Source: Bacillota bacterium (lineage in GTDB: Bacteria > Bacillota > Clostridia > Saccharofermentanales > Fastidiosipilaceae). Taken from it: a stretch of DNA of 49,361 nucleotides. The notes beneath the pieces are model-generated. The model was not told where the DNA came from. It was given only the letters and a program-made list of their open reading frames with translations, and made no database searches. Location: the NCBI GenBank assembly GCA_030055235.1, contig JASGUW010000150.1, forward strand, positions 1 to 49,361. Direction: 5' to 3'. This document shows, piece after piece, positions 1 through 48,883 of the stretch. A program made the translations under genes and the position numbers. Within the stretch, counting starts at the first letter, position 1, and each line of letters begins with the position of its first letter.

Positions 1-255
1 CCGAAACCGGGGCAGGAACGAAAAAATTGACCAGGTGTGGCCAAAAAAGACCGTTTGTGCCCGCGAACAGGGGCACAAACCCCGATTTCTGGCCAGGGGT
101 GGACAAAAAATGCGCTGGTGCCCCGAAATCGGGGCAGGAGCGAAAAAATTGTCCAAGGGTGGACAAAAAAGGCGTTTGTGCCCGCAAATCTGGCACAAAC
201 CCCGATTTCTGGCCACAGCTGGCCCCCAATTGCTGTCTGTGCGCGCAGAATTGGG
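1..255 (-). repeat. Hairpin repeat array, family A (cut by window edge)
   Basis: About two units of a roughly 120-bp repeat, each with two hairpins. GTTTGTGCCC (53-62) pairs perfectly with GGGCACAAAC (71-80). TGCCCCGA (119-126) pairs perfectly with TCGGGGCA (129-136). A third stem, 174-183 with 191-200, has one mismatch, and a decayed stem follows near 210-255. Each hairpin is preceded by TGGACAAAAAA or TGGCCAAAAAA, so the minus strand, which nrdG transcription would enter, reads stem then T-run. The same family lies in the opposite orientation at 42981-43436 and as a single half unit at 11484-11573. It may act as transcription terminators for nrdG or be a dispersed palindromic element. Confidence 0.9.
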
Positions 256-11204: not shown

Positions 11205-11228
11205 GAAAGAACCTCCGCTCTAGTTGAA

Positions 11229-11251
11229 GCGACAGGCAGGCTGCCTGCCGC
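11229..11251 (-). promoter_or_regulatory. Stable hairpin in the adhesin 5' leader
   Basis: GCGACAGGCA (11229-11238) pairs with TGCCTGCCGC (11242-11251) with one G-U wobble and a three-base loop. It lies about 15 bases upstream of the Shine-Dalgarno sequence. It could stabilise the mRNA or modulate translation; there is no T-run, so it is not a terminator. Confidence 0.5.
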
Positions 11252-11483
11252 GGTTGGGGAGTTTCATTTTCCGTGCGTTCGTCACTCCTGGGGTGGGCTA
11301 AAAACCGCCCTCTTCCGCGTCAGGCTGCTGTAATCCGCCCCAGTCAGGGCCCCGGCAGGCGAAAATAGGCGCTTTCTTCAAGGAGCCTGCATCGTTTGTG
11401 AATTCGTATGAAGGGGCGCTGAGTCAAACTGCTAACTGCGCGGCTCAGATAGGTGTCGCAGCTGCAGGAGGTCACAGCTGGCT

Positions 11484-11573
11484 CAGCTTTTTCGTTCCTG
11501 CCCCGGTTTTGGGGCACCAGCGCAATTTTTGTCCAGCCCCTGATCAAATTCCTCGATATTGCCCCGAAGCCAG
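11484..11573 (+). repeat. Solitary family A hairpin repeat
   Basis: The hairpin TGCCCC (11499-11504) with GGGGCA (11511-11516) is flanked by TTTTTCGTTCC and CCAGCGCAATTTTTGTCCA. The right side continues into CGATATTGCCCC, matching the right-hand end of the large array near 43342-43436. The remainder of the 11252-12098 interval, apart from the family C repeats, shows no gene I can support. Confidence 0.85.
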
Positions 11574-11850
11574 CACGAAACTTAAAAAATCAGCCATACA
11601 AGAATAAAGAGGAGATCCCTCAACGCGCAAGGTATTGTGAATGCACATTAGACATGGTTTCGTACTGCATTAATAATCATGGCGCAGCAGGTGTCACCAG
11701 CCCGATTATGAACCGCTTACTCAGATAGAAAGGCGCAGCTGTGAAGAAAAAGCACCTCTTGTAAGCAAAGCACTTGAACGCGCTGGCAGCTTAGGCGCTG
11801 TTCAGAGAAACTAGCTGTGAGGTTCCAGTACCTCTAATCTACTCGATTTG

Positions 11851-11985
11851 CTAACTTTTGGAGTTGTGTCACCTTCTGCTGACACAACTCGCTTTTTTGC
11901 CAAAATCGAGGGTGGATTTGTCAACTTTTGGAGTTGTGTCACCTTCTGCTGACACAACTCGACTTTTTGTCAATTTCGGAGGCTC
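11851..11985 (+). repeat. Hairpin repeat array, family C (two copies)
   Basis: Two copies of a 70-bp unit. In each, GAGTTGTGTCA pairs perfectly over 11 bp with TGACACAACTC (11861-11871 with 11880-11890, and 11931-11941 with 11950-11960). Both are followed by a T-run (GCTTTTTTG and GACTTTTTG). The flanks CTAACTTTTG or TCAACTTTTG and AAAATCGAGGGTGGATTTG are conserved. The T-run faces rightward while both neighbouring genes run leftward, so these copies are not terminators of adjacent genes. Confidence 0.9.
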
Positions 11986-12089
11986 TTCAGATTCAGATCG
12001 CTTCGCCGGGCGCGACAAAACTACCAGAAGTACAAATTGACTTTTTCGTTTAAAGGAATCAAATAGGAGACCTCTCATCGCCCGTCCTG

Positions 12090-12131
12090 TAAAACAATGA
12101 CGTCCAGAAAGTCATAGACTTCCTGGACGTC
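12090..12131 (-). terminator. Intrinsic terminator of the three-gene PFOR operon
   Basis: GACGTCCAGAAAGTC (12099-12113) pairs with GACTTCCTGGACGTC (12117-12131), 15 bp with one mismatch and a three-base loop. On the minus strand it is followed by ATTGTTTT. It lies about 140 bp after the stop of the oxidoreductase gene. Confidence 0.75.
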
Positions 12132-12268
12132 TCATTTGCGCACAAAAGTCGCTTGTGGCTGTCAGTCGACAATTACAACTTGCAATCTGCTTACGAGAAA
12201 ATCACTGCCGGCCCACAAAGCTGCTGCAAAGCTGCTGCAAAAGCGTAGCAGGCTGTCAGCAGCAAACC

Positions 12269-15200
12269 CTACTCATCACAATTCGCCAGCGTCTGCATAT
12301 CCTCCAGCCGCTTGTATTTTCTGTACCTCTCGATGGCAGCGCGTCGACCTTCTTCAAAGAGGACTTCCGCCCTGTCGGGGAAGGTTCTGACCAGAGAGGC
12401 ATAGCGGGTCTCACCTTTCAGGAATTCTTCATAGCTCATGGAAGGCTCTTTGGAGTCGAGGGTCAGGGGAGTCTCGGGATTCGCCGGATTGTAGCGGTAG
12501 AGCAGCCAGTAGCCGGCCTCCACAGCCCGCTTCATCTCTGTCTGGACCTTGTCCATGCCCAGACGAATGCCGTGGGCAATACAGGGAGCATAGGCGATCA
12601 CGACAGAGGGTCCCTTCCAGGCCATGGCTTCCTGCAGAGCTTTCAGAACCTGGCTGTTGTCTGCGCCCATCGCCACCTGAGCCACATAGACATTGCCATA
12701 GGTCATGAGCATGGCACCCAGGTCCTTTTTATGGCTGGCTTTGCCGGAGGAGGCAAACTGCGCCACGGCTCCGATGGGAGTGGCCTTGGAGCTTTGGCCG
12801 CCGGTATTGGAATAGACCTCGGTATCTACAACAAAGACGTTGACATCTGCGCCGCTGGCCACCACATGGTCCAGACCGCCAAAGCCGATATCGTAGGCCC
12901 AACCATCTCCGCCGAACATCCAGAAGGTCTTTTTAGCCAGATGCTCACTGTCCGCCAGAATAGCCTTTGACTGGTCAGAGCCATCCTCTTTCAGGGCTTC
13001 GATCAGTTTCCCGCTGGCAGACTGGGAAGCTTCGAAGTCATCATAGGTATCCAGCCAGTTCCGTGCGGCTTCTTTCAGGGAAGCATTCTCCGTGGCTGAC
13101 ATAAGATTTTGGACCCGGGCCTTGAGACTTTCTCTCTGATGGTTGACGGAAAGGGCCATGCCCAGACTGAACTCCGCATTGTTTTCAAAGAGGCTGTTGG
13201 ACCAGGCCGGGCCATGACCTTTCTCATTGACGGTATAGGGGATACCGGGCATGGGAGATCCCCAGGCCTGGCTGCAGCCGGTGGCATTGGCCCAATAGAC
13301 CCGGTCACCGAATAACTGGGTCATGAGCTTGGCGTAGGGGGTTTCCCCACAGCCGGCACAGGCGGCTGAGAATTCCAGAAGCGGCTTGCGGAACTGGCTG
13401 CCCTTGACGGTCAAGGGACTGAAGAGATCTCCCTTGTCAGACAGAGTTTGAGCGTAAGACCACGGGATCAACATATCTTCATTCAAGTCCGCCGGCACCA
13501 GTTCAATGGCCTTGTTTTTAGCCGGACAGACATGGACACAGCTGCCACAGCCGGTGCAGTCATAGGCAGAGACCTGCAGGCTGTATTCCAGGCCCCTGGC
13601 CGCAGATCCTGTGGCCGGGATGGTCTGAAAGCCTTCAGGAGCCCTTTCCACTTCTTCTTTGTTCAGCAGATAGGGGCGGATACAGGCATGGGGACAGACA
13701 TAGGAACACCTGTTGCACTGGATGCAGTTCTCCGCTATCCACCTGGGAATGCGGGCAGCAATTCCGCGTTTTTCATAGGCGGTCATGCCCATTTCAAAGG
13801 CCCCGTCCTCATAGCCAATGAAGGCACTGGTGGGCATGCTGTCACCTTTTTGCCTGTTGATGGGGATCAGGAAGTCCCTAACCACCTGGGGAAGTCCGGG
13901 ATCCGGGGCTTCCTTCGCATCAGAGCACTCCAGCCAGGTCCTGGGGACATCCACTTTCTTGACGCCTTTGATGCCGGCGTCAATGGCTGCCAGGTTGCGG
14001 TTGACGATGAGGTCGCCTTTTGCGAAGTAGGTAGCCCTTACGGCCGCCTTCAGTTTCTCCGCCGCCTCATCCAGGGGCAGGACCTTGAAGAGGGAGAAGA
14101 AGGCAGCCTGCAGGACCGTATTGGTAAAGCCGCCCAGACCCAGGGCGATGGCAATTTCTGTTGCGTCGATGATATAGACCTGGATGTCCTTCAACGCCAG
14201 CTGGCGCTTGACAGGGTCGGGCAGTTTGCTTTCCAGTTCCTCAGGAGCCCAGCTGCAGTTCAGGAGCAGGGTGCCGCCGGGGACGATTTCATCCACGATG
14301 TCATAGGTTTCGATATAGCGCTGGTTGTGGCAGGCTAAAAAATCAGCCTGCTTAACATAGTAGGAGCCGCGGATAGGCCGGGCACTGAACTTTAAATGGG
14401 ACTTGGTGACGCCAAAGGACTTCTTGGCATCGTATTCAAAATACGCCTGGGCATAGAGGTCGGTGGTCTCGTTGACGATTTGTACGGTGTTCCTGTTGGC
14501 TCCCACCGTCCCGTCTCCGCCCAGTCCCCAGAACTTGCAGGAGACCAGATCCGAATTGCCGATTTTTTCCGTCAGGTCGTACGCCAGCGAAGACTGGTTA
14601 ATATCATCAGTAATTCCGATGGTAAAGCTGTTTTTAGCCTGATCTGTCTTAAGGTTTTCAAAGACGGCCAGGATCTGGGAAGGATCGGTATCCTTGGAGC
14701 CCAGACCATACCTGCCACCCACCACGCTAATCTCCGGTCTGGTCCGGTAGAGAACAGAGCAGACATCCTGATAGAGGGGCTCTCCGGCTGATCCCATTTC
14801 CTTGCAGCGGTCCAGGACTCCGATGCGCCTGCAGGTGTCCGGAAGAGCAGCCAGGAAATGTTCCATGGAAAAGGGCCTGAAGAGGTGGACCTGGATAAAG
14901 CCCACTTTCTGGCCTCTTTCATTCAGGTAGTCTACTGCTTCCTTGATGGTTCCACTGACGGAACCCATGGCCACGATGACCCGGTCCGCTTCTTCATGGC
15001 CGTAATAATTGAAGAGGCGGTAGCTCCGTCCCGTGTAGGCACTGATGGCATCCATGTAGTCCTGGACGATGCCCGGCAGGCGGTCATAGAAGGGCTGGTT
15101 GGCTTCCCGGACCTGAAAGTAGATGTCCGGGTTTTGCACGGTGGCCCTGAGCCTGGGTCGTTCAGGGTTTAAGCTCTGGGCCCGAAAGGCTGCCAGAGCT

Positions 15201-19714: not shown

Positions 19715-20579
19715 CTCTCCTCTTCAAATTCTGAATATTTACCCAATCCATGCCAGCCATGATATAGTTTTTCCCGTTTCCCGGGTTTAGATAAAGTTCC
19801 TTTTTCTTCTTCCTTGTATTCATTGTGAATGAACAAGGCAGATTCGGTCGTCTTGAGTAAAAAAAGTTCCTGAAAGTCAACTTGTTTCTGGGGCGAATCA
19901 TCACAGTGCCGCTCTTCTTATCCTTGCGAAATGTCTGACTCCGGCAACTCAAGAGGAGTGACCCCGATTTCCTCTGCATGCCTGATCTGGTACAAACAGG
20001 ATGTCAAAATCCCAATAGCGAACATTATGCTGTGAACAAACGCAGGTAAGGTCCTTGGCACCCAGGGGACGGGCGGATGAGGTCCACATTGTGATTATTT
20101 CTGCGAAGCCCGACTCCTCGACCGCCACCAACAGCCGGCCGGCCGTCTTTGAGCCCGAAGTCCGCGCTGTCCGCGCTGGCCCCGCATCCCCGCCGCCGCT
20201 TCTGGCGGTGACGGGTGCAGGCGCTCTGGAGCCTGAACAGCGTTCTCAGGGATATCAGTGGCACAAGTCCCATGCTGGAGCAGCGACCGTACTCAAACGA
20301 AAAAACTGCTGCTGGCGGGAGCAAGGGCCAATTGGCCAGGCTGGGGTGCTGACAGAATCTCGAGGGCCAGAAACCGGCAAACTGCTCTTCTGCCCCTGCC
20401 CGCCGTCCTCCCGGCATCTTCATCTGCTTCCCGGTATCCCTGACATGCGCCCGGCCACAGACGGCGAATACAGCTGGGGAGAACAGGCCTTTTGACAGAA
20501 ATGGGGCTGTTTCGACGATCGCTTCTAGCTGCTTCAGAGGGGATAGCTGTGAGGTTACAGCAACTCTTATCTATATGGT
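19715..20579. other. Long intergenic stretch with no supportable gene
   Basis: This is upstream of the divergent operon and should hold its promoter, but I cannot pick one with confidence. GC-rich open frames between 20025 and 20500 on both strands lack a ribosome binding site and any family resemblance, so I leave them out. It may be decayed coding sequence. Confidence 0.5.
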
Positions 20580-20675
20580 GTGTCAAGTTTTGAGTTGTGT
20601 CAGCTTTCTCTGACACAACTCGTTTTTTTGTCCAATTCGAGAGTGGAATGGTCAACTTTTGGAGTTGTGTCGAAC
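20580..20675 (+). repeat. Hairpin repeat, family C (one full and one truncated copy)
   Basis: GAGTTGTGTCAG (20592-20603) pairs over 12 bp with CTGACACAACTC (20610-20621), followed by T7 and GTCC. A second unit begins GGTCAACTTTTGGAGTTGTGTC but ends after the left arm (about 20671). The following 20680-21410 shows no gene I can support. Confidence 0.88.
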
Positions 20676-21411
20676 CTCTCCTTTTTCGAAGCTCCTCACT
20701 CACTCCCAAGCAAGCACCTGCTGATACCTGTCTTAGAGGATGTGGCATGTCAGGATCTCTTTATGAATGCGGAACATCAATCTGGACACTTTTCCGCAGC
20801 CTCGAGCCGTCCGCCGCTTTTTTCATTTGTATGCAGGTGCACATCGGAAGCAGACAATTACGCGATATGACAAAACCTCAAAACGTACGACAGTAAGAAA
20901 CACTCTAATCGTGATTGCTGGAATCATAGGATAAGTCGCGCCATACAGTGCCTTACAGCAGGCTGCTCATGGATTCGGCAGCTGATACTTAATTGTAATA
21001 TATGCGAATGCTTCAGGCCTTCTGGCTTTGTAGTATCTGAATATTTCCCACTCAGAAGTTGCTTCAAACACGGTATTCCTATTGCAGATGACTGTGACAG
21101 GCGCGGCAAACTGCCAATGCACAAATTGATTTTTCCTTCAGAAGGCTCTGATCCAGACCTCTAACAATTCGGAATTGACACGTGTTAGAGCAAAAAGACG
21201 TTGTATTTGTGTCGCTTTCTGTAAAGATGCTGGCGTTTTCGAGCTTCTCCTGAACGATTGCTGCACAAAAGAATGACACAAATGGAAGTTTTATCAGCAC
21301 CAGCTAAAAACGCAGCAGTCTGTTCCCGTTGCTCCATCCGGAAACAGGGATTCCCACGAGCTGTCAGAGTGCCACCAGCCCGGGAAATATTGGGAAATTC
21401 TCCCGAAACTG

Positions 21412-21441
21412 TTGACAGGCAGGAAACAGGAGTGCTATTCT
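21412..21441 (+). promoter_or_regulatory. Promoter of the ABC transporter pair
   Basis: A perfect -35 TTGACA (21412-21417) and -10 TATTCT (21436-21441) are separated by 18 bp, which predicts transcription starting near 21448 and a leader of about 150 bases. Confidence 0.75.
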
Positions 21442-21451
21442 CGGAATCATA

Positions 21452-21467
21452 GTTAGCCGGCGCTAAC
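21452..21467 (+). promoter_or_regulatory. Operator-like inverted repeat GTTAGC-N4-GCTAAC
   Basis: Perfect 6-bp arms surround a four-base centre and lie just downstream of the -10, over the expected transcription start, where a repressor would block initiation. The TTAG...CTAA layout recalls sites of DtxR/IdeR-type metal-dependent repressors; that assignment is inference. An iron- or metal-controlled transporter would fit the genes behind it. Confidence 0.55.
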
Positions 21468-21547
21468 CAAACCGTGCCAAATCGTGTCCGCCGAACAGAA
21501 TTCGGTTTTTGGGAACCTTCGGTTAGCGCAGGCTGGCTTTTTCTTTG
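21455..21547 (+). promoter_or_regulatory. Structured leader with possible attenuator
   Basis: GCGCTAACC (21460-21468), the right half of the operator, is exactly complementary to GGTTAGCGC (21521-21529). AGCC at 21455 and GGCT at 21531 could extend the pairing, and CTTTTTCTTTG follows. Between them a smaller hairpin, CCGAA-N5-TTCGG (21491-21505), is followed by T5. Both look like terminators inside the leader, so conditional readthrough is possible. Confidence 0.45.
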
Positions 21548-21595
21548 TTGAACTGCAGATCGCGGTATCTGCCATGCAGGAAGGAGAAAAACGGC

Positions 21596-23401
21596 ATGGC
21601 TGCGACAGAGAAATCATCTCCCGCAGGCAGACTGCTTGAATATGCCGGCAGCTACAGGCCGCTGACCTATGTCGGACTCGCCCTGTCCGCAGTCGCCATG
21701 ATCCTCGGCATGCTGCCCTACATCTGCATCTGGCTGGTAGCCCGCGACCTGCTCGCCGTCGCTCCCCACTGGAGCAGTGCTGACAGAATCACTACCTACG
21801 GCTGGCTGGCCTTTGTCTTTGCCGTATTGGGCATCCTTGTCTACTTTGCAGCCCTGATGTGCACCCATCTGGCGGCTTTCCGCACCGCCGCCAACATTCG
21901 CAAACAGGGCATGGCCCGGCTGCTGCGGGCGCCGCTCGGCTTCTTCGACCAGCAGGCGTCGGGGCTGCTGCGCAACCGCCTCGACGGTGCCGCTGCGGAG
22001 ACGGAGACCCTGATGGCGCACAACCTGGCCGACATCATAGGCACCGTTGCCATGTTCGCCTGCATGCTGGTGCTGATGCTCGTCTTCGACTGGCGCATGG
22101 GCGCGGCCTGCCTGATTGCCGCCGTCATCTCCGCTCTTTCCATGATGTCGATGATGGGCGGAAAAAACGCCGGTCTCATCGCTTCCTACCAGGCGGCTCA
22201 GGATCGCATGAGTAAGGCCGGTACTGAATACGTCCGCGGCATCCCGGTAGTCAAGGTCTTCCAGCAGACCGTCCATTCTTTCCGTGCCTTTCGCCACGCG
22301 ATCGAGGACTACAGCGAAAAGGCGGAGCACTATCAGGGCGCGGTCTGCCGCCTGCCGCAGAGCATCAATCTGACCTTTAGCGAAGGCGCCTTTGTCTTCC
22401 TGATCCCGGTCGCCCTTTTTCTGGCGCCGGGAGAACTGGCCGCAGGGAATTTCGCGGCCTTTGTGGCGAACTACGTCTTCTACGCTGCCTTCTCGGCCAT
22501 CATTTCCACATCTTTGGCGAAGGTCATGTTTGCGGCCAGTGGCCTGATGCTCGCCTCCACCGCTCTGGAGCGCATCGACCAGGTCATGAATGCCCCGCAG
22601 CTGACGGTGACAAAGGCGCCGCGGTTGCCGCGGGACAACAGCGTAGAGTTTCGCAACGTCTCCTTTCATTATGAAGGCTCGGAGCTGCCCGCTCTGGATC
22701 GGCTTTCCTTCCTGGTGGAAGCCGGACAGACCGTGGCGCTGGTCGGTCCTTCCGGCGGCGGCAAGACCACCGCTGCCAGCCTCATCCCGCGTTTCTGGGA
22801 TGTCACTGCGGGAACGCTGGCCGTGGGGGGCGTGGATGTGAAGGAGATCGACCCGGATGTGCTGATGGATCAGGTGGCTTTTGTCTTCCAGAACAGCCGC
22901 CTCTTCAAGGCCTCGGTCCTGGAGAACGTCCGTGCCGCCAGACCAGGAGCCACGCGCGCCGAGGTTCAGGCCGCCCTGGACGCTGCCCGCTGCGCTGATA
23001 TCCTCGAAAAACTGCCGCAGGGAATGGACAGCCTGCTGGGTTCTGAGGGCACCTGGCTCTCCGGCGGGGAGCGGCAGCGCATTGCGCTCGCCCGCGCCAT
23101 CCTGAAAGACGCGCCGATTGTCGTGCTGGACGAGGCGACGGCCTTTGCCGATCCCGAAAACGAGGTCCTGATCCAGAAGGCCTTCGCGGCACTGGCCCGG
23201 GGCCGGACCGTCATCATGATCGCGCACCGCCTGTCGACCGTGGTTTCCTGTGATCGGATTTTTGTGCTCGACGCGGGACGCCTCGTCGAGTCGGGCAGCC
23301 ATCAGGATCTTTTGCGGGCGGAGGGCCTCTATGCGCGAATGTGGGCCGACTACCGCCAGGCGCTCGCATGGCGGATTTCGAGCGCGGGAGAGGAGCCTTG
23401 A
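21596..23401 (+). CDS. ABC exporter-type half-transporter, subunit 1
   Basis: The 601-residue protein fuses a six-helix ABC type-1 transmembrane domain (about 1-330) to a nucleotide-binding domain (about 345-600). The latter has Walker A GPSGGGKTT near 383, a Q-loop region (FVFQNSRLF), signature LSGGERQR, Walker B IVVLDEAT with the catalytic Glu, and the H-loop IAHRLST, all intact. It probably forms a heterodimer with the next gene, whose ATG follows the stop codon with no gap. Such pairs export drugs, peptides or lipids, or in the IrtAB/YbtPQ group import siderophores. The metal-repressor-like operator favours the last, but this is inference. I chose the ATG at 21596 because AAGGAG lies nine bases upstream; the frame is open further upstream without a better start. 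Confidence 0.92.
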   Translation: MAATEKSSPAGRLLEYAGSYRPLTYVGLALSAVAMILGMLPYICIWLVARDLLAVAPHWSSADRITTYGWLAFVFAVLGILVYFAALMCTHLAAFRTAANIRKQGMARLLRAPLGFFDQQASGLLRNRLDGAAAETETLMAHNLADIIGTVAMFACMLVLMLVFDWRMGAACLIAAVISALSMMSMMGGKNAGLIASYQAAQDRMSKAGTEYVRGIPVVKVFQQTVHSFRAFRHAIEDYSEKAEHYQGAVCRLPQSINLTFSEGAFVFLIPVALFLAPGELAAGNFAAFVANYVFYAAFSAIISTSLAKVMFAASGLMLASTALERIDQVMNAPQLTVTKAPRLPRDNSVEFRNVSFHYEGSELPALDRLSFLVEAGQTVALVGPSGGGKTTAASLIPRFWDVTAGTLAVGGVDVKEIDPDVLMDQVAFVFQNSRLFKASVLENVRAARPGATRAEVQAALDAARCADILEKLPQGMDSLLGSEGTWLSGGERQRIALARAILKDAPIVVLDEATAFADPENEVLIQKAFAALARGRTVIMIAHRLSTVVSCDRIFVLDAGRLVESGSHQDLLRAEGLYARMWADYRQALAWRISSAGEEP

Positions 23402-25144
23402 ATGTTTGGCGAAGCCTTCAAACGCAGGTTTGCCCTGTCCGATCGGGGTGTGGCCAATGCCAGGCGGGGCATGTTCTGGACGGTCATTGTCAACCTGGTC
23501 GTCATTGCCGGAGTGGGCATCCCCTATCGCCTGCTGCGGGGCTTTGTCAACACTCTGACGCTTGGTGCCCCGCTCCCTGCGGCTCTGCCTTTTGTCGTGT
23601 TGACGGCTGCTTTCGTCCTGCTTTCCTTCATCACACACCTGGAGCAGTACCGCGTCACCTACAGTCTGGTCTACGGGGAGGTGCGGGATGTCCGCATCGC
23701 CCTGGCCGAGCGCCTGCGCCGCCTTCCGCTTGGCTATTTCGGCAGACGCGATCTGGCGGATCTGACAGAGGCCATCATGGGCGACGTCAACCGCATGGAA
23801 CATGTCTGGTCGCATGTGCTGGGCTATCTCTACGGTGCCTTTGTCTCTACGGTGCTGGTCGCGATCGCCCTGGTGGTCATCGACTGGCGCCTGGCGCTGG
23901 CCTGTCTCTGGGGTGTGCCGGTCGCCTTTGCCCTGCTTTTTGGCAGTCGTAAGCTGGCCCGCCGCCATTCCGAACGGGTGAAAGAGGCGGCTGTAGAGGT
24001 TTCCGATGGCATTCAGGAGACACTGGAGACGATCCGTGAAATACGGGCGGCCAGGCTGGGAGCGCGCTGTCTGGATGCCCTGAATGCCAGGATTGACAGT
24101 CATGAGGCCACACTGCGGCAGAGCGAGCTCGTTGTCGGCCTCTTTGTCAACGCCGCCAGTGTCATCATGCGCCTGGGGGTGGCGAGTACGATTCTGGCCG
24201 GGGCCAGGCTTATCCTCCAGAACCGCGTCGACTTCATGACGCTGCTTTTGTTCCTGCTGGTGATCACGCGCATCTACGCTCCCTTCGACCAGAGTCTGGC
24301 CCTGATCGCCGAGGTCTTTGTCTCAGAAGTCTCCGCCCGGCGCCTGATGGAGATCTTCGACACGCCTACGGCCACAGGTGGCGAAGTCTTCGCCCCAAAG
24401 AACTATGACATCACGTTTCGTGATGTGAGCTTCGCCTACGATCGCGAGGACGTGCTGAAGGGCGTGAGTTTCACAGCCGCTGAAGGTGAAGTGACGGCCC
24501 TTGTCGGTCCTTCGGGATCCGGGAAGAGCACCTGCGCCCGCCTCGCCGCCCGGCTCTGGGAGATTGACGCGGGAGTGATTGAGGTCGGCGGCGTGGATAT
24601 CTCCACCGTCGATCCGGAAGTCCTGCTGGGCGCCTATTCCATGGTTTTCCAGGACGTTATGCTTTTTGACGATTCGGTGCTCGAGAACATCCGACTGGGA
24701 CGTCATGGTGCAAGTGATGAGGATGTTTTGGAGGCCGCTGCTGCCGCCAACTGCGATGAGTTTGTGAGCCGGCTGCCGCAGGGATATGACACGCCAATCG
24801 GGGAGAACGGGGCCAGGCTGTCAGGCGGAGAGCGGCAGCGCATCTCGATCGCCCGTGCCCTGCTGAAGAACGCGCCCATCGTCCTCCTTGACGAGGCCAC
24901 CGCCTCGCTTGATGTCGAGAATGAGACGAAGGTGCAGGGAGCACTTTCGCGTCTGCTGGCCGGCAAAACGGTTCTGGTCATCGCTCACCGCATGCGCACG
25001 GTCGCCGCAGCCGACAAGATTGTCGTGCTGGTCGACGGGCAGGTGGCTGAGGCCGGCAGTCCGGCTGAGCTTGGCGCCCGTGAAGACGGCGTCTTCCGGC
25101 GCATGCAGCAGCTGCAGGCGGAGGGGGCGAACTGGAGTCTATAG
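23402..25144 (+). CDS. ABC exporter-type half-transporter, subunit 2
   Basis: The 580-residue partner has a transmembrane domain (about 1-320) and a nucleotide-binding domain with Walker A GPSGSGKST near 369, LSGGERQR, Walker B IVLLDEATASLD and the H-loop IAHRMRT. Both subunits keep complete catalytic motifs, so both ATP sites of the heterodimer should be able to hydrolyse. It is directly adjacent to subunit 1 and surely co-transcribed and co-translated. The substrate is not evident; see subunit 1 for the siderophore hypothesis. Short direct repeats follow the stop codon. Confidence 0.92.
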   Translation: MFGEAFKRRFALSDRGVANARRGMFWTVIVNLVVIAGVGIPYRLLRGFVNTLTLGAPLPAALPFVVLTAAFVLLSFITHLEQYRVTYSLVYGEVRDVRIALAERLRRLPLGYFGRRDLADLTEAIMGDVNRMEHVWSHVLGYLYGAFVSTVLVAIALVVIDWRLALACLWGVPVAFALLFGSRKLARRHSERVKEAAVEVSDGIQETLETIREIRAARLGARCLDALNARIDSHEATLRQSELVVGLFVNAASVIMRLGVASTILAGARLILQNRVDFMTLLLFLLVITRIYAPFDQSLALIAEVFVSEVSARRLMEIFDTPTATGGEVFAPKNYDITFRDVSFAYDREDVLKGVSFTAAEGEVTALVGPSGSGKSTCARLAARLWEIDAGVIEVGGVDISTVDPEVLLGAYSMVFQDVMLFDDSVLENIRLGRHGASDEDVLEAAAAANCDEFVSRLPQGYDTPIGENGARLSGGERQRISIARALLKNAPIVLLDEATASLDVENETKVQGALSRLLAGKTVLVIAHRMRTVAAADKIVVLVDGQVAEAGSPAELGAREDGVFRRMQQLQAEGANWSL

Positions 25145-25577: not shown

Positions 25578-25880
25578 TCGGTTTTTGTATTTCTCTTCGT
25601 TTTGATCCTGCGCGCCGCGCGGCGTGCGCGGCCTCTTATGTGGTCAATATGGGCTGAAAGGGCAATCTAATTTGCCTTTACACGCTGTTTTGACCCAGCG
25701 CGCGGTGCAGTAGCGGCGCGCGCGTCCCTCCTTTGGTCAAGATGAAGAGAAATACAAATTTTGTTTTGTAAAACTCTCGATTTTGACCCTGCACGCCGCA
25801 CAGCGGCGTGTGCGATTCTTTCCATGGACAAGATCGTGAGTAAAAATATTGTTTTTTGTAGTTCTCTTCGTTTTGAGCAC
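25578..25880 (+). repeat. GC-palindrome repeat array, family D
   Basis: Three imperfect units of about 90 bp and a fourth partial one. Each begins near GTTTTTGTATTTCTCTTCG, has TTGACC or TTGATC, then a GC-rich palindrome (for example GCACGCCGC-ACA-GCGGCGTGTGC near 25791-25813), and closes with GGTCAA or GGACAA, giving a long hairpin. Units start near 25581, 25671, 25760 and 25850. This family differs in sequence from A, B and C. Upstream at 25520-25565 a 15-bp motif (GACCCCTC-AGAACAG) occurs twice. The next 370 bp, to the terminator, show no gene. Confidence 0.75.
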
Positions 25881-26250
25881 CAGGTATCTGCCTGCTGCTT
25901 TCTCTTCACTCTTCCGGCCAGCGGCCTTCTGGCATGCTTACCCGCGTCCCGACATTCCTGATGTGCACGACTCTTTTCGAGCCATTGCCCTTGTGTAAGC
26001 AATTGCTTCCGCTGTATATATGCTCCCGTTGCATATATGCAAATAGAAAAATGAAGAGAGCGGCGGGAAGCCGCAGCTGCTCAAGGCTGCGGATGAGTGT
26101 CCAGAGCTAAAGTGCTGCAATCAAAACCGGGATCTTCGGTGCAGCGGGATCTTTTTTATTACCAGGCTGTCAGTACCTATGTAGTTAGTGGCTTGTTTGT
26201 GGCGTCTTTGAAAAGCAACAATTCTGAGCAGAAAACCGCTCTTCGCGCAC

Positions 26251-35486: not shown

Positions 35487-36896
35487 ATGCGTCCTGATGT
35501 AAAGCCCACCCGACGATATGCTCTCATCGGTCATCCCCTTGGCCACAGCCTGTCGCCCGTCATCCACGCTGAGATCGATCACCTGACCGGCGCCTCCAAT
35601 CGTTATGATTTATGCGAAGTCCCACCGGAGGAACTCGCCGCCCGCCTGCCGCGGCTTCTGGAGCAGTATGACGGCCTCAACGTCACCATTCCGCATAAGG
35701 AACGCGTGATTCCCCTGCTCACTTCGCTTGATCCACGCGCCAAGGCTCTTGGCGCCGTCAACACTATCAACTGTCAGCTGGGCCGTGGCCATAACACCGA
35801 TGCCGGTGGGGTGCGTCCGGATCTTGGCGATGTTGAGGGGGCCAGGGTTCTCATCATCGGGGCGGGAGGCGTGGCGCGTACGCTGGCGGCTCTGGTTCTG
35901 GAGATGGGATGCAAAGAACTCCTCATCACCGGCCGCAGCCCTGAGCGTGTGGAGCGTTTCGTTGCCGATATTGCGCGCGGCCTCGAGCGCCGCCGGGTCC
36001 ACAGCGTGACCCCGGACGGGCTCGGCGAGCTGCTGCTGCGCCGCGAGGGAGCCTTCGACCTGATCATCAACGCGACGGCCGCCGGCATGTGGCCCGCCGT
36101 CGGCGAGCTGCCGCTCGAGCGCGGCCTGCTTGAGGCGCTTTTCGATGCCGGGCGGCCGCATGTTTTCGACGCCGTCTACAACCCGCCGGCGACGCGCCTG
36201 CTGCTGCTGGCGCGCTCGGCCGGACTCCGGGCCACGGGCGGCCTGGCCATGCTCTGGCGTCAGGCCGTCCTGGCCCGCCAGATCTGGGAGCCCGACAATG
36301 AAGCCCTGGGCGCTCTGATTACGCCGTCGCCCGAGACACTCGGGCGGCTGGCCCGCGAGCTCTGGCGCCACTTTGGCCAGCGCATTGTGCTGACCGGCTT
36401 CGTCGGTTCCGGGAAGGGCGTCGTCGTCGCCCGCCTGCCGCAGGCATTCGGGCTCGGCGGGCTTGGCGTCAGCGATCTCGACGACGCCTTCGCCGCAGCG
36501 ACGGGGCAGCACAGCCCGGCCTGGCAGCGCGAGCACGGCGAGGCGCGCTTCCGCCAGATGGAGCGCCAGGTCCTCGACGAGCTGCTCGCCACCCCCGGCA
36601 GCCAGGTCATCGCCACCGGGGCCGGCACCCTGATCCAGCCCGGCCTGGCGGAGCACGTGCACGACAGGAACGCCCTGGTCGTCTGGCTCAACGCGCCGCT
36701 GGGCCTGATCCTGGAGCGCTTCCGGCCGGCCTTCGAGCGGGCGGGGGCGGGCGCCGCCGAGCTGCGCGAGCAGACCGAGCGCCTCTACCGCCAGCGCCTG
36801 GCGCTCTACCGCGAGGCCGCCGACCTGATGATAGACGCCGGCGGCACCCCCGACCAGGTGGCGCGGCGCATCGCCCACGCGCTGGAGCTGGCGTAA
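35487..36896 (+). CDS. aroEK: Shikimate dehydrogenase-shikimate kinase fusion
   Basis: The 469-residue protein joins two consecutive pathway enzymes. Residues 1-280 are AroE: GHPLGHSLSP shikimate site, NVTIPHKE with the catalytic Lys, NTDAGG with its Asp, GAGGVART for NADP, and a closing MLWRQAVLARQIW. Residues about 295-469 are AroK: a P-loop GFVGSGKG, DLDDAF, GEARFRQMER, ATGAGTLI, and the lid and base-binding RFRPAFE and YRQRLALYREAADL. The P-loop ends in Gly where kinases have Ser or Thr that binds magnesium, and ATGGG reads ATGAG, so kinase activity may be altered. AAGGAG lies nine bases before the ATG. The bifunctional order dehydrogenase-kinase is unusual in bacteria to my knowledge. 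Confidence 0.9.
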   Translation: MRPDVKPTRRYALIGHPLGHSLSPVIHAEIDHLTGASNRYDLCEVPPEELAARLPRLLEQYDGLNVTIPHKERVIPLLTSLDPRAKALGAVNTINCQLGRGHNTDAGGVRPDLGDVEGARVLIIGAGGVARTLAALVLEMGCKELLITGRSPERVERFVADIARGLERRRVHSVTPDGLGELLLRREGAFDLIINATAAGMWPAVGELPLERGLLEALFDAGRPHVFDAVYNPPATRLLLLARSAGLRATGGLAMLWRQAVLARQIWEPDNEALGALITPSPETLGRLARELWRHFGQRIVLTGFVGSGKGVVVARLPQAFGLGGLGVSDLDDAFAAATGQHSPAWQREHGEARFRQMERQVLDELLATPGSQVIATGAGTLIQPGLAEHVHDRNALVVWLNAPLGLILERFRPAFERAGAGAAELREQTERLYRQRLALYREAADLMIDAGGTPDQVARRIAHALELA

Positions 36897-36904
36897 CGGC
36901 TGCG

Positions 36905-36955
36905 TGAAACGGTGAGTGAAGCGGTTAGCGGTGAGTGAAGCGGTTTGTGAAGTGT
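36905..36955 (+). repeat. Short tandem repeat behind the aroEK stop codon
   Basis: CGGTGAGTGAAGCGGTT occurs twice in tandem within 10 bp of the stop codon, flanked by shorter variants of GTGAAGCGGT. The motif resembles the one behind the ABC pair at 25190-25215. Confidence 0.7.
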
Positions 36956-37039
36956 TGATCTGCACTCCGGACGGCGATTACATCCGGTAGGCAGTCGAAA
37001 GCTGTCACAAGACAGTCGCAAGCTGTCGAGAGCGTAAAA

Positions 37040-37262
37040 TTGCTTGCAGTCGTGGGGCAATATCGACTTTTTTGTACACCGCTTGCGCAAATATTTCGAT
37101 ATTGCCCGGATCGCGGGGCAATACCGGCTTTTTTGTCCACTCTCTGGTCAAAAACTTCGATATTGCCCGATCTGCGGGGCAATACCGGCTTTTTTGTCCA
37201 CTCTCTGGTCAAAAACTTCGATATTGCCCGATTCGCGGGGCAATACCGGCTTTTTTGTCCAC
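37040..37262 (+). repeat. Hairpin repeat array, family B
   Basis: Three 61-bp tandem units and a decayed fourth at the left. In each, TATTGCCC pairs with GGGCAATA (for example 37100-37107 with 37116-37123), followed by CCGGCTTTTTTGTCCA, then CTCTCTGGTCAAAAACT before the next. On the plus strand each looks like an intrinsic terminator and could end transcription from aroEK. The array meets family C head to head at a perfect inverted repeat. Confidence 0.92.
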
Positions 37263-37276
37263 ATACGGTTTTCTAA

Positions 37277-37487
37277 GTGGACAAAAAAGCGAGTTATGTC
37301 AGCGAAGAGTGACACAACTCGAAAAGTTGGCAAATCCATCCTCGATTTGGACAAAAAAGCGAGTTATGTCAGCAAAAGGTGACACAACTCCAAAAGTTGG
37401 CAAATCCACCCTCGATTTTGACAAAAAAGCGAGTTGCGTCATCAAAAGGTGACACAACTCCAAAAGTTGGTAAATCCGTCCAGTGTG
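37277..37487 (-). repeat. Hairpin repeat array, family C (three copies)
   Basis: Three 70-bp units in the orientation opposite to those at 11851. Stems are at 37291-37301/37310-37320, 37361-37371/37380-37390 and 37431-37441/37450-37460. The right arm TGACACAACTC is invariant, while the left arm reads GAGTTATGTCA twice and GAGTTGCGTCA once, each one mismatch from perfect pairing. Each is preceded by GACAAAAAAGC. The 140 bp between this array and the next gene carry only its leader. Confidence 0.92.
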
Positions 37488-37626
37488 CAAATTTTGCTCC
37501 CCCGCAGCCTCCAAAGAAAACGAAAAACGAAAATCACCGTACCCGGTTTCTGCTTTCTGTATCCTGGCAGTCACCCGCAGCGGCTGTTTTTGCGTAGAAT
37601 AGTCCCCAGGAAAAGAGGTTATATAG

Positions 37627-38640
37627 ATGATTCTTGTTCTTAAATCCGGCACGAGCCCCGAAGCGCTTGAGGAACTCTGTGTATGGCTGCGCCACTTCGG
37701 CGTCCAGACCAACCCGATTATCGGCAGTGAGATGAGCGTGGTCGGCCTGGTTGGCGACACTTCGGCGATCGACATTGACCAGGTGCGCCAGCACGAGCTC
37801 GTCGAACGCGTGATGAAGGTGCAGGAGCCCTACAAGCGCGCGAACCGCCGCTTCCACCCCGATGACACGATTGTCGAAGTCGATGGCGTCGCGATCGGCG
37901 GCCCCGACATCGTCCTGATCGCCGGCCCCTGCTCGGTCGAAAGCGAAGAGCAGATCGCCGGCATCGCGCGCCAGGTGCAGTCGAGCGGAGCGAAGCTGCT
38001 GCGCGGCGGCGCCTTCAAGCCGCGCTCGTCCCCCTATGCCTTCCAGGGATTGAAGGCCGAAGGTCTGCTCTATCTCAGCCATGCCCGCGAGCAGACCGGG
38101 CTGCCCCTCGTCTCCGAAATCACGAACGTTTCGCAGATTGAGATGTTTGAGTCGTACGTCGACATCTTCCAGGTCGGCACGCGCAACATGCAGAACTTCG
38201 AGCTGCTCAAACAGCTGGGTCAGACACGCAAGCCCGTGCTCCTGAAGCGCGGCTTCATGAACACACTCGACGAGCTGCTGATGAGCGCCGAGTACATCAT
38301 GAGCGGCGGCAACGACAAAGTCATCCTCTGCGAGCGCGGCATCCGCACCTTTGAGACGGCGACACGCAACACCCTCGACGTCTCGGCCATCCCGGTCCTC
38401 AAGCGCCGCAGCCACCTGCCGGTCATCGTTGACCCCTCGCATGCGGCCGGCGATGCCTGGCTCGTCTCCTCACTGTCGAAGGCCGCGATCGCTGCCGGCG
38501 CCGACGGCCTCATCATCGAGGTCCACAACGACCCCAGCCGCGCCCTCTCCGACGGCCAGCAGTCGCTGACACCGGCCGCCTTCGACGCCCTCGTGCCCGA
38601 ACTGCGCCGCGTCGCCGAAGCGGTCGGCCGCCGCATCTAG
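37627..38640 (+). CDS. aroF: DAHP synthase, type I-beta, copy 2
   Basis: The 337-residue paralogue of the enzyme at 33238 has the same layout: an N-terminal ferredoxin-like regulatory domain and a barrel with [34 protein letters not shown] and IVDPSHAAG. The catalytic core is conserved, but the N-terminal domains differ strongly ([14 protein letters not shown] against [14 protein letters not shown]), as expected for isozymes under different feedback control. AAAGAGG precedes the ATG by eight bases. It heads a tight aroF-aroB-aroA-aroC run, so this copy probably feeds the common pathway or phenylalanine while copy 1 is tied to tyrA. Confidence 0.95.
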
Positions 38641-42111: not shown

Positions 42112-42488
42112 TCTTTCCAGCCGGAGCGGCTTTCCGCTTTGTGCGTTGCAGAGCAGGAGTAAATATCAACTTCCCTGCGCCATTGCGTGTCGCCGGCAAA
42201 TATTAAGTGCAGCCTCCCGCTGTTATCCTAAAACAGAGAGGCACGGTATTTTCTGTTTCAGAAAAGTGCGCATGGTGCAAAAATCTAAAATAGAAATCAG
42301 AAACGTCCGATTGGCTATGCGTTAGGATCGTTGACAGCCGTGAGACGGCATGAAGAAAACAGCCTATCTGAAAGCAGTGCTTTGGAGATGCAGCATAGAT
42401 AAAGAGTCATCATCAAGAGCTCAGAGGAGTAGTAGAGAGGGCACAGATAGATCGGATCCGACATTGGCGCAGTGTTCTGGACAGGTAG

Positions 42489-42794
42489 AAAGAAAGCAAA
42501 CTTACCGTACCCTGGTGGTGTGCGGAGAATGGTATGAATCGGAATGTCTTCTATTACTGGCAGCGCATGTTCAATGAACCGGAGTCCTGGAATCAGGCTG
42601 AGGAAGCAGAAGTGCTGCTACTTCATCCATTGACGCCGTTTTTGTGCACCTGGAACGATATGCAACAGATCATGAATCCCTCGACCTCACATACCGTTCA
42701 TCTCTCGAATGGCATCTGCGTAGACGCTCCGTCTTCATCCAAAGAAAACGATCTTCGGCGGCTGCTTTTGCTCCTGAAAGGGGCTGTGTCATGA
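42489..42794 (+). pseudogene. Remnant of IS66-type accessory protein TnpA
   Basis: Reading KLTVPWWCAENGMNRNVFYYWQ and, near the end, an NGICVDAPSSS-type segment with a Leu-rich helix, this frame has the layout of IS66 TnpA proteins (SGLTVxxWCxxNGI, YYYW, then a short C-terminal beta segment). An in-frame TAG lies just upstream (42486-42488), and a plausible N-terminal part (LAQCSGQ) is in another frame, so the gene is frameshifted. The stop overlaps an ATG as ATGA, the usual TnpA-TnpB junction, but the following frame ends after 24 codons and does not resemble TnpB. No transposase gene remains. The identification rests on motif memory. Confidence 0.6.
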
Positions 42795-42980
42795 GAATCA
42801 GGAATCCCAGTTATCTGACCGCCAGCCTCAGCCGTTTTTCACGTTCTCTTTTCAGGACAGCTTAACAAGTGTTGTTCGTACGACTGCTTCCTATCGATTC
42901 GTTTGCCGCCGCTTTGTGATAACGAATAAAAAAGAGAAAGCGGCGGTGCTGCGCCGCCAGTTGGGGTTAATGGCTGTGGC

Positions 42981-43436
42981 CAATTTTTTCGTTCCTGCCC
43001 GGATTTCGGGGCACCAGCGCAGTTTTTCCCCCTTGGCCAGAAATCGGAGTTTGTGCCCGATTCTGGGGCACAAACGGCCTTTTTTGGCCAGCCCTGGCCA
43101 ATTTTTTCGTTCCTGCCCCGTTTTCGGGGCACCAGCGCAATTTTTGTCCACCCTTGGCCAGAAATCGGGGTTTGTGCCCAGGTTTCGGGGCACAAACGGT
43201 CTTTTTTGGCCAGCAGTGGTCAATTTTTTCGTTCCTGCCCCGTTTTCGGGGCACCAGCGCAATTTTTGGCCACTCTTGGCCAGAAATCGGGGTTTGTGCC
43301 CAGGTTTCGGGGCACAAACGGCCTTTTTTGGCCAGCCTGGACAATTTTTTCGTTCCTGCCCCGCTTCCGGGGCACCAGCGCAATTTTTGTCCAGCCCCCA
43401 GTACAAAACTCTTCGATATTGCCCCCGAGACCAGTC
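42981..43436 (+). repeat. Hairpin repeat array, family A (three and a half units)
   Basis: Units of 118-122 bp start at 42981, 43099, 43221 and 43342. Each has hairpin I (TGCCCCG at 43114-43120 with CGGGGCA at 43125-43131 in unit 2) and hairpin II (GTTTGTGCCC at 43170-43179 with GGGCACAAAC at 43188-43197). Conserved linkers are CAATTTTTTCGTTCC, ACCAGCGCAATTTTTG, GGCCAGAAATCGGGG and CGGCCTTTTTTGGCC. The last unit keeps hairpin I, then changes to CGATATTGCCCC, a family B-like end. It lies between convergent genes downstream of aroC. The stretch 42112-42488 holds only scattered short hairpins. Confidence 0.95.
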
Positions 43437-43586
43437 CAAGGGACTTGGAAATGAGCTGTGCTGGAATTATTGTCAGCTGCTCCTGCGCACTTCTCTTTTC
43501 AACAGGCGAACTGACGGACCGTTTCCTATCTTTGTCACTTACAGATGTGATCCGTTCCGCACAGCGTCAAAGGACGAGTTATATCC

Positions 43587-44129
43587 TTATTCTTTATTTG
43601 AGATAATTCCCCTGCAGTTCCACTTAAGGACCGATTGATAGCCAAGTTTTCCATACCATTGTTCCAGTTGCGTATAGTGAATCCATGAGAGGTCGAAGCC
43701 TTCCTCACGAAGTGTGTCAGTCGCCTGTCTGACCATTTCAAGTCCTATTCCCTTTTTGCGGTACTCAGGAATGGTTCCGACACAGCCGGGTCCACCGATA
43801 TGCAAGCCCTGATGGCGACCCCAGTCACTCAGAATACAAAACGCAACAATTCTGTCTTCTGCCAGGGCGCAGAACACCTGTTCCTCCACACTGAAAAACT
43901 GCACCCAGTTTTCGTTTACCCTGGCGACCGCTTCGTGGAGTATATCGATGTTTCCGCAAAACTTGCCGAAGGAAATCGCTTCTGGACAATCAAATACCAC
44001 TTCTGGGGACTTGTTCTTTCGCAAATCCATAACCAATTCTGTGAAAATTCGTTCCTCAGGCATTCCACTGATACTGGTATCCTGGAAAAAACCGGGATAC
44101 ATGCTGTCAAACAATTCCTTATAAGTCAT
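43587..44129 (-). CDS. GNAT-family N-acetyltransferase
   Basis: The product of about 180 residues has an acetyl-CoA-binding segment VGTIPEYRKKGIGLEMVRQA near residue 120 and the closing YGKLGYQSV, typical of GNAT acetyltransferases. The substrate, a small molecule or protein amino group, is not evident. I put the start at the ATG at 44129 (MTYKELFDSMYPGFF), as the sequence before it looks non-coding, although the frame is open to 44210; no strong ribosome site is seen for either. Its codons are markedly more AT-rich than those of the surrounding aro genes, and it lies between a repeat array and a gene-poor stretch, which suggests acquisition by transfer. Confidence 0.8.
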   Translation of the reverse strand: MTYKELFDSMYPGFFQDTSISGMPEERIFTELVMDLRKNKSPEVVFDCPEAISFGKFCGNIDILHEAVARVNENWVQFFSVEEQVFCALAEDRIVAFCILSDWGRHQGLHIGGPGCVGTIPEYRKKGIGLEMVRQATDTLREEGFDLSWIHYTQLEQWYGKLGYQSVLKWNCRGIISNKE

Positions 44130-44752
44130 ATTCCAACTACCCCACCCCAAAGAAGCCTGTCTCTGAAATATCAATTGATTTATGCGCACATAATAGCTGT
44201 TTGGTCTCAACGAAAGAAGGAAGAGCGTTCAAGAAGCTTCCTGAATCGTCTTGGTCAGTTACTTTGAGAACGTAATTGAACTGTTGAAGACAGGGCTTGT
44301 GTCGAGCAGGAGGCAGCTCCTTTGCACCCTGTGCTTTTCAATAGAGTGCGTTGTTCAATGCAACTGCACTCAGGCTGAAAGTGCCGCTTTCTCTATTTCG
44401 CTGTATCCCGGAAGTGCAGGTCAGGCGCTCGGCGATTTATCGCAGCTTCATGCTTTCGCATGCTGTTCTTTCCGAGCTCACAGCATCATTCCATAAGCAG
44501 CTGTGTACAGGGGACGCCAGGCGTCAAAGCATGAAGCACTTGCGAAAGCAGCGAACAACCTCATCAATCGGAGCACTTTGTCTGGTCTTTTCAGATTGCT
44601 TGTATGCGTCGAATCCCTGCCGCGCCGTTGCTGGTGCACGCTCCCGCCTGTTTTGCCATCGGCCGTGCCCTCCTTTGCATTAAAAGCAGAAGTCTAACAC
44701 TGCTGTCACATTTTCCTGTTAACTCAATCCTACTCTCAATGGATACGGGGGC
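44130..44752. other. Intergenic stretch with no supportable gene
   Basis: I see no open frame with family resemblance, RNA gene or repeat here. It separates the GNAT gene from the pheA promoter. Confidence 0.4.
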
Positions 44753-48719: not shown

Positions 48720-48763
48720 GGACGGGCATGTGACTGTCAGGACGGCTCCGGGTAACTAAAGAT

Positions 48764-48883
48764 GACTCCGGTTGCCTGCCGGAGTCTGAGCTGAGTGCCT
48801 AACGACGATTCCGGATACCTTCCGGAGTCTGGGGCTGATTGCCTAACGACGACTCCAGGTACCTTCCGGAGTCGTCTTTTTTT
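48764..48883 (+). terminator. Three tandem hairpins ending in an intrinsic terminator
   Basis: Hairpin 1 is GACTCCGG/CCGGAGTC (48764-48771, 48779-48786). Hairpin 2 is a degenerate copy at 48808-48828. Hairpin 3 is GACGACTCC/GGAGTCGTC (48848-48856, 48868-48876), followed by T7. They repeat with a period of about 43 bp and share the linker GCCTAACGACGA. Only the third has the T-run, so it is the functional terminator and the others look like duplicates. Confidence 0.92.

Follow-up and report, generated by a model that had tools for sequence, protein, structure and literature searches.

The BOX elements of Streptococcus (boxA-boxBn-boxC) are interspersed composites located between genes, in which fixed ends enclose a variable number of internal tandem modules; according to the available part of the source, the modules are predicted stem-loops and the terminal inverted repeats are IS-like (PMC3049150). 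In neisserial intergenic mosaic elements (NIME), which comprise RS repeats with dRS3, a short inverted repeat accompanies different longer units, as far as the accessible sections of the description go (PMC3898611). REP/BIME with their RAYT transposases are, in the portion of the account at hand, palindromic units that form mosaic intergenic clusters (PMC3733652). Additionally, MITEs and Correia elements are described in the accessible sections as short, gene-free sequences with terminal inverted repeats and target duplication (PMC3898611). No description of arrays such as those analyzed here was found in full text, which is weak evidence given the limited coverage of the search.

The window, i.e. 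the whole stretch of 49,361 nucleotides that was analyzed, belongs to a genome of an uncultured Bacillota lineage and contains two hairpin families, B and C, that meet in the gap between a shikimate dehydrogenase/kinase fusion gene (35487-36896, plus strand) and a DAHP synthase gene (37627-38640, plus strand), both assigned by Pfam. This gap (36897-37626) holds four B units with the stem ATATTGCCC/GGGGCAATA and three C units with the stem GAGTTGTGTCA/TGACACAACTC (Table 1). An earlier note had described a perfect inverted repeat at the B-C boundary, and it is indeed present, with 14-bp arms that are one base longer than claimed and a 14-bp spacer. The repeat is beyond chance expectation: it is the one exact inverted repeat with arms of at least 13 and a spacer of at most 20 in the whole 49-kb window, and each of 20 simulated windows (first-order Markov) contained none. 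The exact 14-bp repeat was recovered in four of the 194 fetched loci, all of which represent the window region itself, and the spacer sequence ATACGGTTTTC also lies 3' of a B array in locus L132, ahead of another C array. At the right border of the C array, a fragment resembles family F, the family that occupies the syntenic site of the congener. Rfam gave no match above the gathering score in the window, the best one in the gap being far below. Two further tandem repeats of the window are a 44-bp repeat of 2.7 copies at 48756-48873, without a match to the families studied (TRF, unit HMM), and a 330-bp repeat of 2.5 copies at 7698-8513, within a long minus-strand reading frame.

Table 1. Repeat features of the window and array sites compared with the congener.
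Feature	Position	Strand	Content or basis
B array	37049-37262	+	Four matches to the 61-bp palindromic unit; repeat search, TRF, unit HMM
Left arm of inverted repeat, last B adapter	37249-37262	+	GCTTTTTTGTCCAC; sequence reading
Spacer, 14 bp	37263-37276		ATACGGTTTTCTAA; sequence reading
Right arm of inverted repeat, first C adapter	37277-37290	+	GTGGACAAAAAAGC; sequence reading
C array	37278-37480	+	Three 70-bp units; repeat search, TRF, unit HMM
Fragment resembling family F	37472-37504	-	Unit HMM
E array	42977-43393	+	Seven alternating E1/E2 units, common adapter shell; TRF, unit HMM
Module D, usual neighbor of B/E arrays	42851-42961	-	26 of 29 D matches at most 60 bp from a B/E unit
C element	20531-21256	-	R end 20533-20590, two C units 20578-20672, T end 21208-21255
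Second C element	11799-11973	-	R end and two C units; flanking-end search
E2/E1/E2 units	38-215	-	Three units; unit HMM
Site 1, aro gap			B and C here; two F matches in congener
Site 2	42148-44680		Seven E units here; none in congener
Site 3, contigs C235/C12			B here; three E1 in congener; assumes that the two contig ends adjoin as there
Site 4, contig C70			Three C units in each genome, positioned differently with respect to a common 0.9-kb block
Site 5, contig C46 (congener C42)			One B unit here; two E1-like units in congener; shell aligned, stem different
Site 6	19822-24092		Two C units here; 71-bp family, 5.8 copies, in congener
Site 7, contig C135, first			Array here; no tandem array in congener
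Site 8, contig C147, second			Array here; no tandem array in congener
Site 9, contig C135, second			1102 bp with seven C units here; 55 bp in congener
Site 10, contig C26, first			Three C units here; 217 bp in congener

The architecture of the units accounts for the symmetry of the junction. Every B unit is palindromic and both begins and ends with the adapter (TGGnCAAAAA...TTTTTGnCCA), and its consensus, TGGTCAAAAACTTCGATATTGCCC-loop-GGGGCAATACCGTGATTTTTGTCCA, places this adapter at the terminus of the left and the right arm alike. The resulting shell is common to families B, E1 and E2 and partly to C, while the stems differ by family and the unit lengths range from 59 to 70 bp; in the consensus sequences an inner TGCCC/GGGCA pairing is common to B, E1 and E2, and the outer arm CGCTTTTTTGTCCA is present on one side of C. 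Pairing is maintained along the units except at fixed places, notably the n of TGGnCA, where standard pairs are rare (B, 8 of 109 units; C, 8 of 136; E1, 7 of 30). The RNA fold of a single B unit reaches z values of -4.8 and -5.5 against shuffles on the two strands. Since the cassettes are palindromic and have a common shell, each seam between two of them is an inverted repeat by construction, and for this reason orientation does not flip at the B-C junction, contrary to the earlier proposal. The same inverted repeat is found at 66 of 98 B-B seams, and C is attached to the right arm of B in the window and to its left arm in locus L165. Of the other same-family pairs, 28 of the 177 C pairs and 15 of the 17 E1 pairs show the seam, compared with none of the 10 F pairs. 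Caution is called for, since palindromic units can produce a conspicuous head-to-head inverted repeat at an ordinary seam.

DNA searches of the own genome, with 40 candidates scored per search, returned at least 96 B and at least 105 C matches. From these matches, 86 places were listed and grouped into 64 clusters, an array count that is a lower bound and favors the best matches; 60 stretches were fetched from these clusters, together with 13 more. Annotation with the unit HMM, congener loci included, yielded 149 B, 252 C, 60 E1, 20 E2 and 18 F units, and unit sequence makes up 26,142 of 441,261 bases (~6%) in the stretches of this genome, which were picked for arrays. Assembly contigs often terminate inside B or C arrays (e.g. 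C12, C98, C173, C222, C235), hiding the true array lengths. A looser seam pattern, TTTTTGNCCAN{2,9}TGGNCAAAAA, occurs 98 times in this genome, with 0 hits for the reversed control, and is absent from 187 other genomes of the same order. B/C DNA was detected in two of 58 relatives, which belong to the same genus and include the present genome. The array set is restricted to one genus.

In the flanks of the C arrays, two ends recur that are inverted repeats of each other: R, the right end (TGTTCAGAGGGGATAGCTGTGAGATTCCAGCACC..), and T, the left end (TGTTCAGGGGGACAGCTCGAGAAATGCCAGCA..). They share TGTTCAGRGGG..AGCT..GAGA..T.CCAGCA in terminal inverted repeats of ~32 bp. Of the 54 C arrays, 34 are adjoined by R on their right (34 of 51 usable cases), 17 are without it and three lie at contig ends; R was found on the wrong side once. 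T lies to the left of 11 C arrays, and both ends in the expected orientation enclose eight of the 54. The arrays contain two to eight C copies, two to five in the eight complete elements, in which two different fixed ends surround variable tandem modules. Ten end-to-end elements were examined and span 362-1075 bp. One (L133) is bordered by a 9-bp target duplication, CAAAGCATC, and a second (L144) by CC(T/G)CCAAT, an 8-bp duplication with one mismatch that was read by eye. In the remaining eight, no target duplication above 5 bp was seen. The L144 element occupies the loop of a B hairpin, and its joined flanks form a full B unit that scores 40.2 bits, compared with 21.0 and 11.0 for the separate halves; in L123, two B units flank a C element. 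C arrays lie inside MITE-like elements with terminal inverted repeats. The suggestion that the adapter is an insertion end did not hold, as the mobile-like unit of the C arrays carries separate terminal inverted repeats beyond the array. The C array of the aro gap is without the R and T ends. A block of R, half C, P and B array recurs in L100, L128, L132, L135, L136 and L147 (read by eye), and since L132 has the same order of B, spacer and C as the window, ACATACGGTTTTC, the junction seen in the window probably descends from a dispersed composite rather than from a one-time event. A Y1 transposase was considered as the current mobilizer and rejected: the one match in this genome carries four stops (L135:3798-4031, corresponding to C163:17297-17530), and the congener has no match. 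The broken copy is flanked by a C array and a B array.

The placement of the arrays was compared in ten gaps with intact synteny, for which the congener flank matches were mostly 72-92% identical DNA; four of the eight sites from the last four syntenic queries, where synteny is broken, and the window gap 11204-12269, where congener contigs end, were left out, and sites 3-5 were reached via arrays already known in the congener. At nine of the ten gaps, the array is absent from the congener or belongs to another family; a tandem array is present there at five gaps and is of the same family at one. Of the seven gaps chosen blind to the congener, two retain any tandem array, and a site-bound function of the arrays was rejected on this count. 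The earlier note had also asked whether empty sites lack everything between adapters; at the near-empty congener counterpart of the second C135 site, the flanking modules are missing as well. Several further observations concern these sites. The right flanks of the C163 and C26 array sites, located on different contigs, are directly adjacent in the congener (C20:140662-140667), and, in a count that covers array sites only, four of the eight sites of those last queries coincide with synteny breaks. Two congener gaps at array sites (L184 and L183) hold a single copy of another repeated hairpin sequence, and window positions 25734-25968 have ~30 matches across the congener and are apparently related to its 71-bp hairpin family. 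The palindromic seam could also be viewed as an array of binding sites for a DNA-binding protein with an operator, partition or nucleoid function, given that TTTTTGnCCA-n5-TGGnCAAAAA is a long dyad at a regular 61-bp spacing. This is very improbable: the congener arrays have a slightly different shell without any exact match to the seam pattern, and array placement differs between the species.

Whether the adapter marks a real unit boundary, as initially claimed, depends in part on how array ends are mapped. Annotation with the unit HMM gave 302 homotypic and 47 heterotypic neighbor pairs, and the TTGnCCA..TGGnCAA seam was found in 31 of the 47 pairs that differ in family or strand, a count favored by unit models that run from adapter to adapter. 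Owing to this preference, array ends were redone by a model-free alignment to the tandem consensus, which made the outcome for the phase method-dependent, the HMM ends being more adapter-bound. In the model-free alignment, 25 of 49 left ends of C arrays fall into the hairpin loop (positions 26-40) and 18 near the adapter, while 39 of 52 right ends cluster at positions 51-65. B-array ends are spread, and the 28 of 70 that lie within about 10 bp of the adapter represent little enrichment, since this zone covers a third of the unit. The adapter stands as a real seam between units, and as the sole boundary it was rejected on both ways of end mapping, with many ends in loops in the model-free alignment. 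Junctions at unrelated unit positions, which had been named as evidence against the adapter as a boundary, do occur, including the C element inside the B loop in L144.

These data also bear on the idea that the adapter is a recognition and joining site for a recombinase or transposase, with single hairpin cassettes being added or swapped and the unit itself being mobile. Such an activity would fit the combination of one shell with different stems in B, E1, E2 and partly C, the frequent switch of families at the adapter, the conserved mismatch in the TGG-n-CA pairing itself, and site 5, where the shell is retained between species and the stem is different. It nevertheless appears unlikely, as the C arrays lie within elements that have separate terminal repeats, many array ends are located in loops, the congener site at C135 lacks more than the array alone, and in the E2 consensus the mismatch position is occupied by a standard pair. 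A related proposal, rated as rather unlikely, is a modular hairpin-cassette system in which an enzyme would read the mismatch-bearing shell and cassettes would be exchanged at two dyad axes, the adapter and the loop. If this were true, a gap could retain its cassette array while the stem family is replaced between species, and the enzyme might be provided by the host or by the element.

Similarity among units reveals local homogenization of the arrays. For B units, it amounts to 0.904 for adjacent copies, 0.866 within the same array and 0.833 between arrays, and the respective values for C are 0.904, 0.882 and 0.842. Among 97 B units, 23.2 have their nearest neighbor within their own array, and among 125 C units, 51.2 do, compared with ~2.3 expected, i.e. 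ten to twenty times above chance.

The stem-loops might alternatively be retained in intergenic gaps as functional transcription terminators or insulators. The window gap contains eight terminator-like matches, compared with 1.4 expected, and in tandem gaps the strand with the better T-run is the sense strand for eight of nine B arrays. C arrays in tandem gaps are divided into seven sense and seven antisense cases. Their gene context (n=32, genes called by a custom codon-usage script and not by a standard gene finder) comprises 7 divergent, 11 convergent and 14 tandem gaps, without a clear contrast to array-free gaps of at least 250 bp (n=18; 5, 6 and 7, respectively). With the arrays of the window lying between two codirectional aro genes and the congener being without a tandem array at half of the ten syntenic gaps, a retained terminator or insulator role is unlikely; the identity of the arrays as plain terminators was rejected on the gene-context and strand counts, and termination is a possible by-product. 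C arrays also showed a strand bias toward the nearest gene (24 of 32), which was discounted as a probable effect of geometry, given that the long modules are located on the opposite side of C.

The explanation considered probable is that of BOX-like, nested, non-autonomous composite elements, in which the palindromic arrays on the inside expand locally and become fused where adapters are shared. Here, the inverted repeat of the junction would be the place where two tandem arrays of palindromic cassettes adjoin, and the C array would represent the inner portion, variable in copy number, of a MITE-like element with TGTTCAGRGGG.. ends, while B arrays would move together with flanking modules of their own (D or P). 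These composites, possibly mobilized by a transposase acting in trans, may insert into intergenic gaps and into each other, hairpin loops included, after which their arrays would expand and contract locally. Different arrays could then fuse at the common adapter or upon loss of intervening modules, and the exact window junction most likely arose through a recombination step of this kind, by fusion or deletion within a nested composite; the arrays would presumably serve no site-bound function. The observations brought together here comprise the shell and the terminal repeats, a target duplication at two elements, the insertion into one loop, and both local homogenization and turnover between species. 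Counted against the composite elements are the low numbers of C arrays with both ends and of target duplications, the origin of the terminal-repeat evidence in C arrays only, and the reduction of the Y1 transposase family to a single broken copy here, with none in the congener. The arrays offer a natural case for the growth, nesting and recombination of palindromic tandem arrays in bacteria, in which one adapter shell serves stems of different sequence.

Compared with the described systems, the C element resembles MITEs and Correia elements in being short and gene-free with terminal inverted repeats in the expected orientation (eight C arrays), but it holds a tandem palindrome array, and its target duplication, readable in two cases, measures 8-9 bp and is not TA. 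REP/BIME, as covered by the available portion of the source, share the organization of palindromic units in mosaic intergenic clusters (PMC3733652); the units here are 59-70 bp long versus 20-40, the genome has no intact RAYT (Y1) transposase, and REP-type tags at the palindrome foot are rare (GTAG: 8 of 149 units in B, 19 of 252 in C; CGTC: 14 units in B, 48 in C). NIME likewise form intergenic arrays in which one short inverted repeat occurs alongside varied longer units, according to the accessible sections of the source (PMC3898611). In contrast to NIME, the units here are palindromic, the C arrays lie inside terminal-repeat elements and the dRS3 pattern ATTCCC(N8)GGGAAT was found in none of the 194 loci. 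The likeness to BOX, within the available part of its description, lies in the architecture: an intergenic composite with fixed ends, IS-like terminal inverted repeats and variable tandem stem-loop modules (PMC3049150). It differs from BOX in that the modules are themselves near-perfect palindromes with a common adapter, one shell serves several families, and the elements nest in each other's hairpins.
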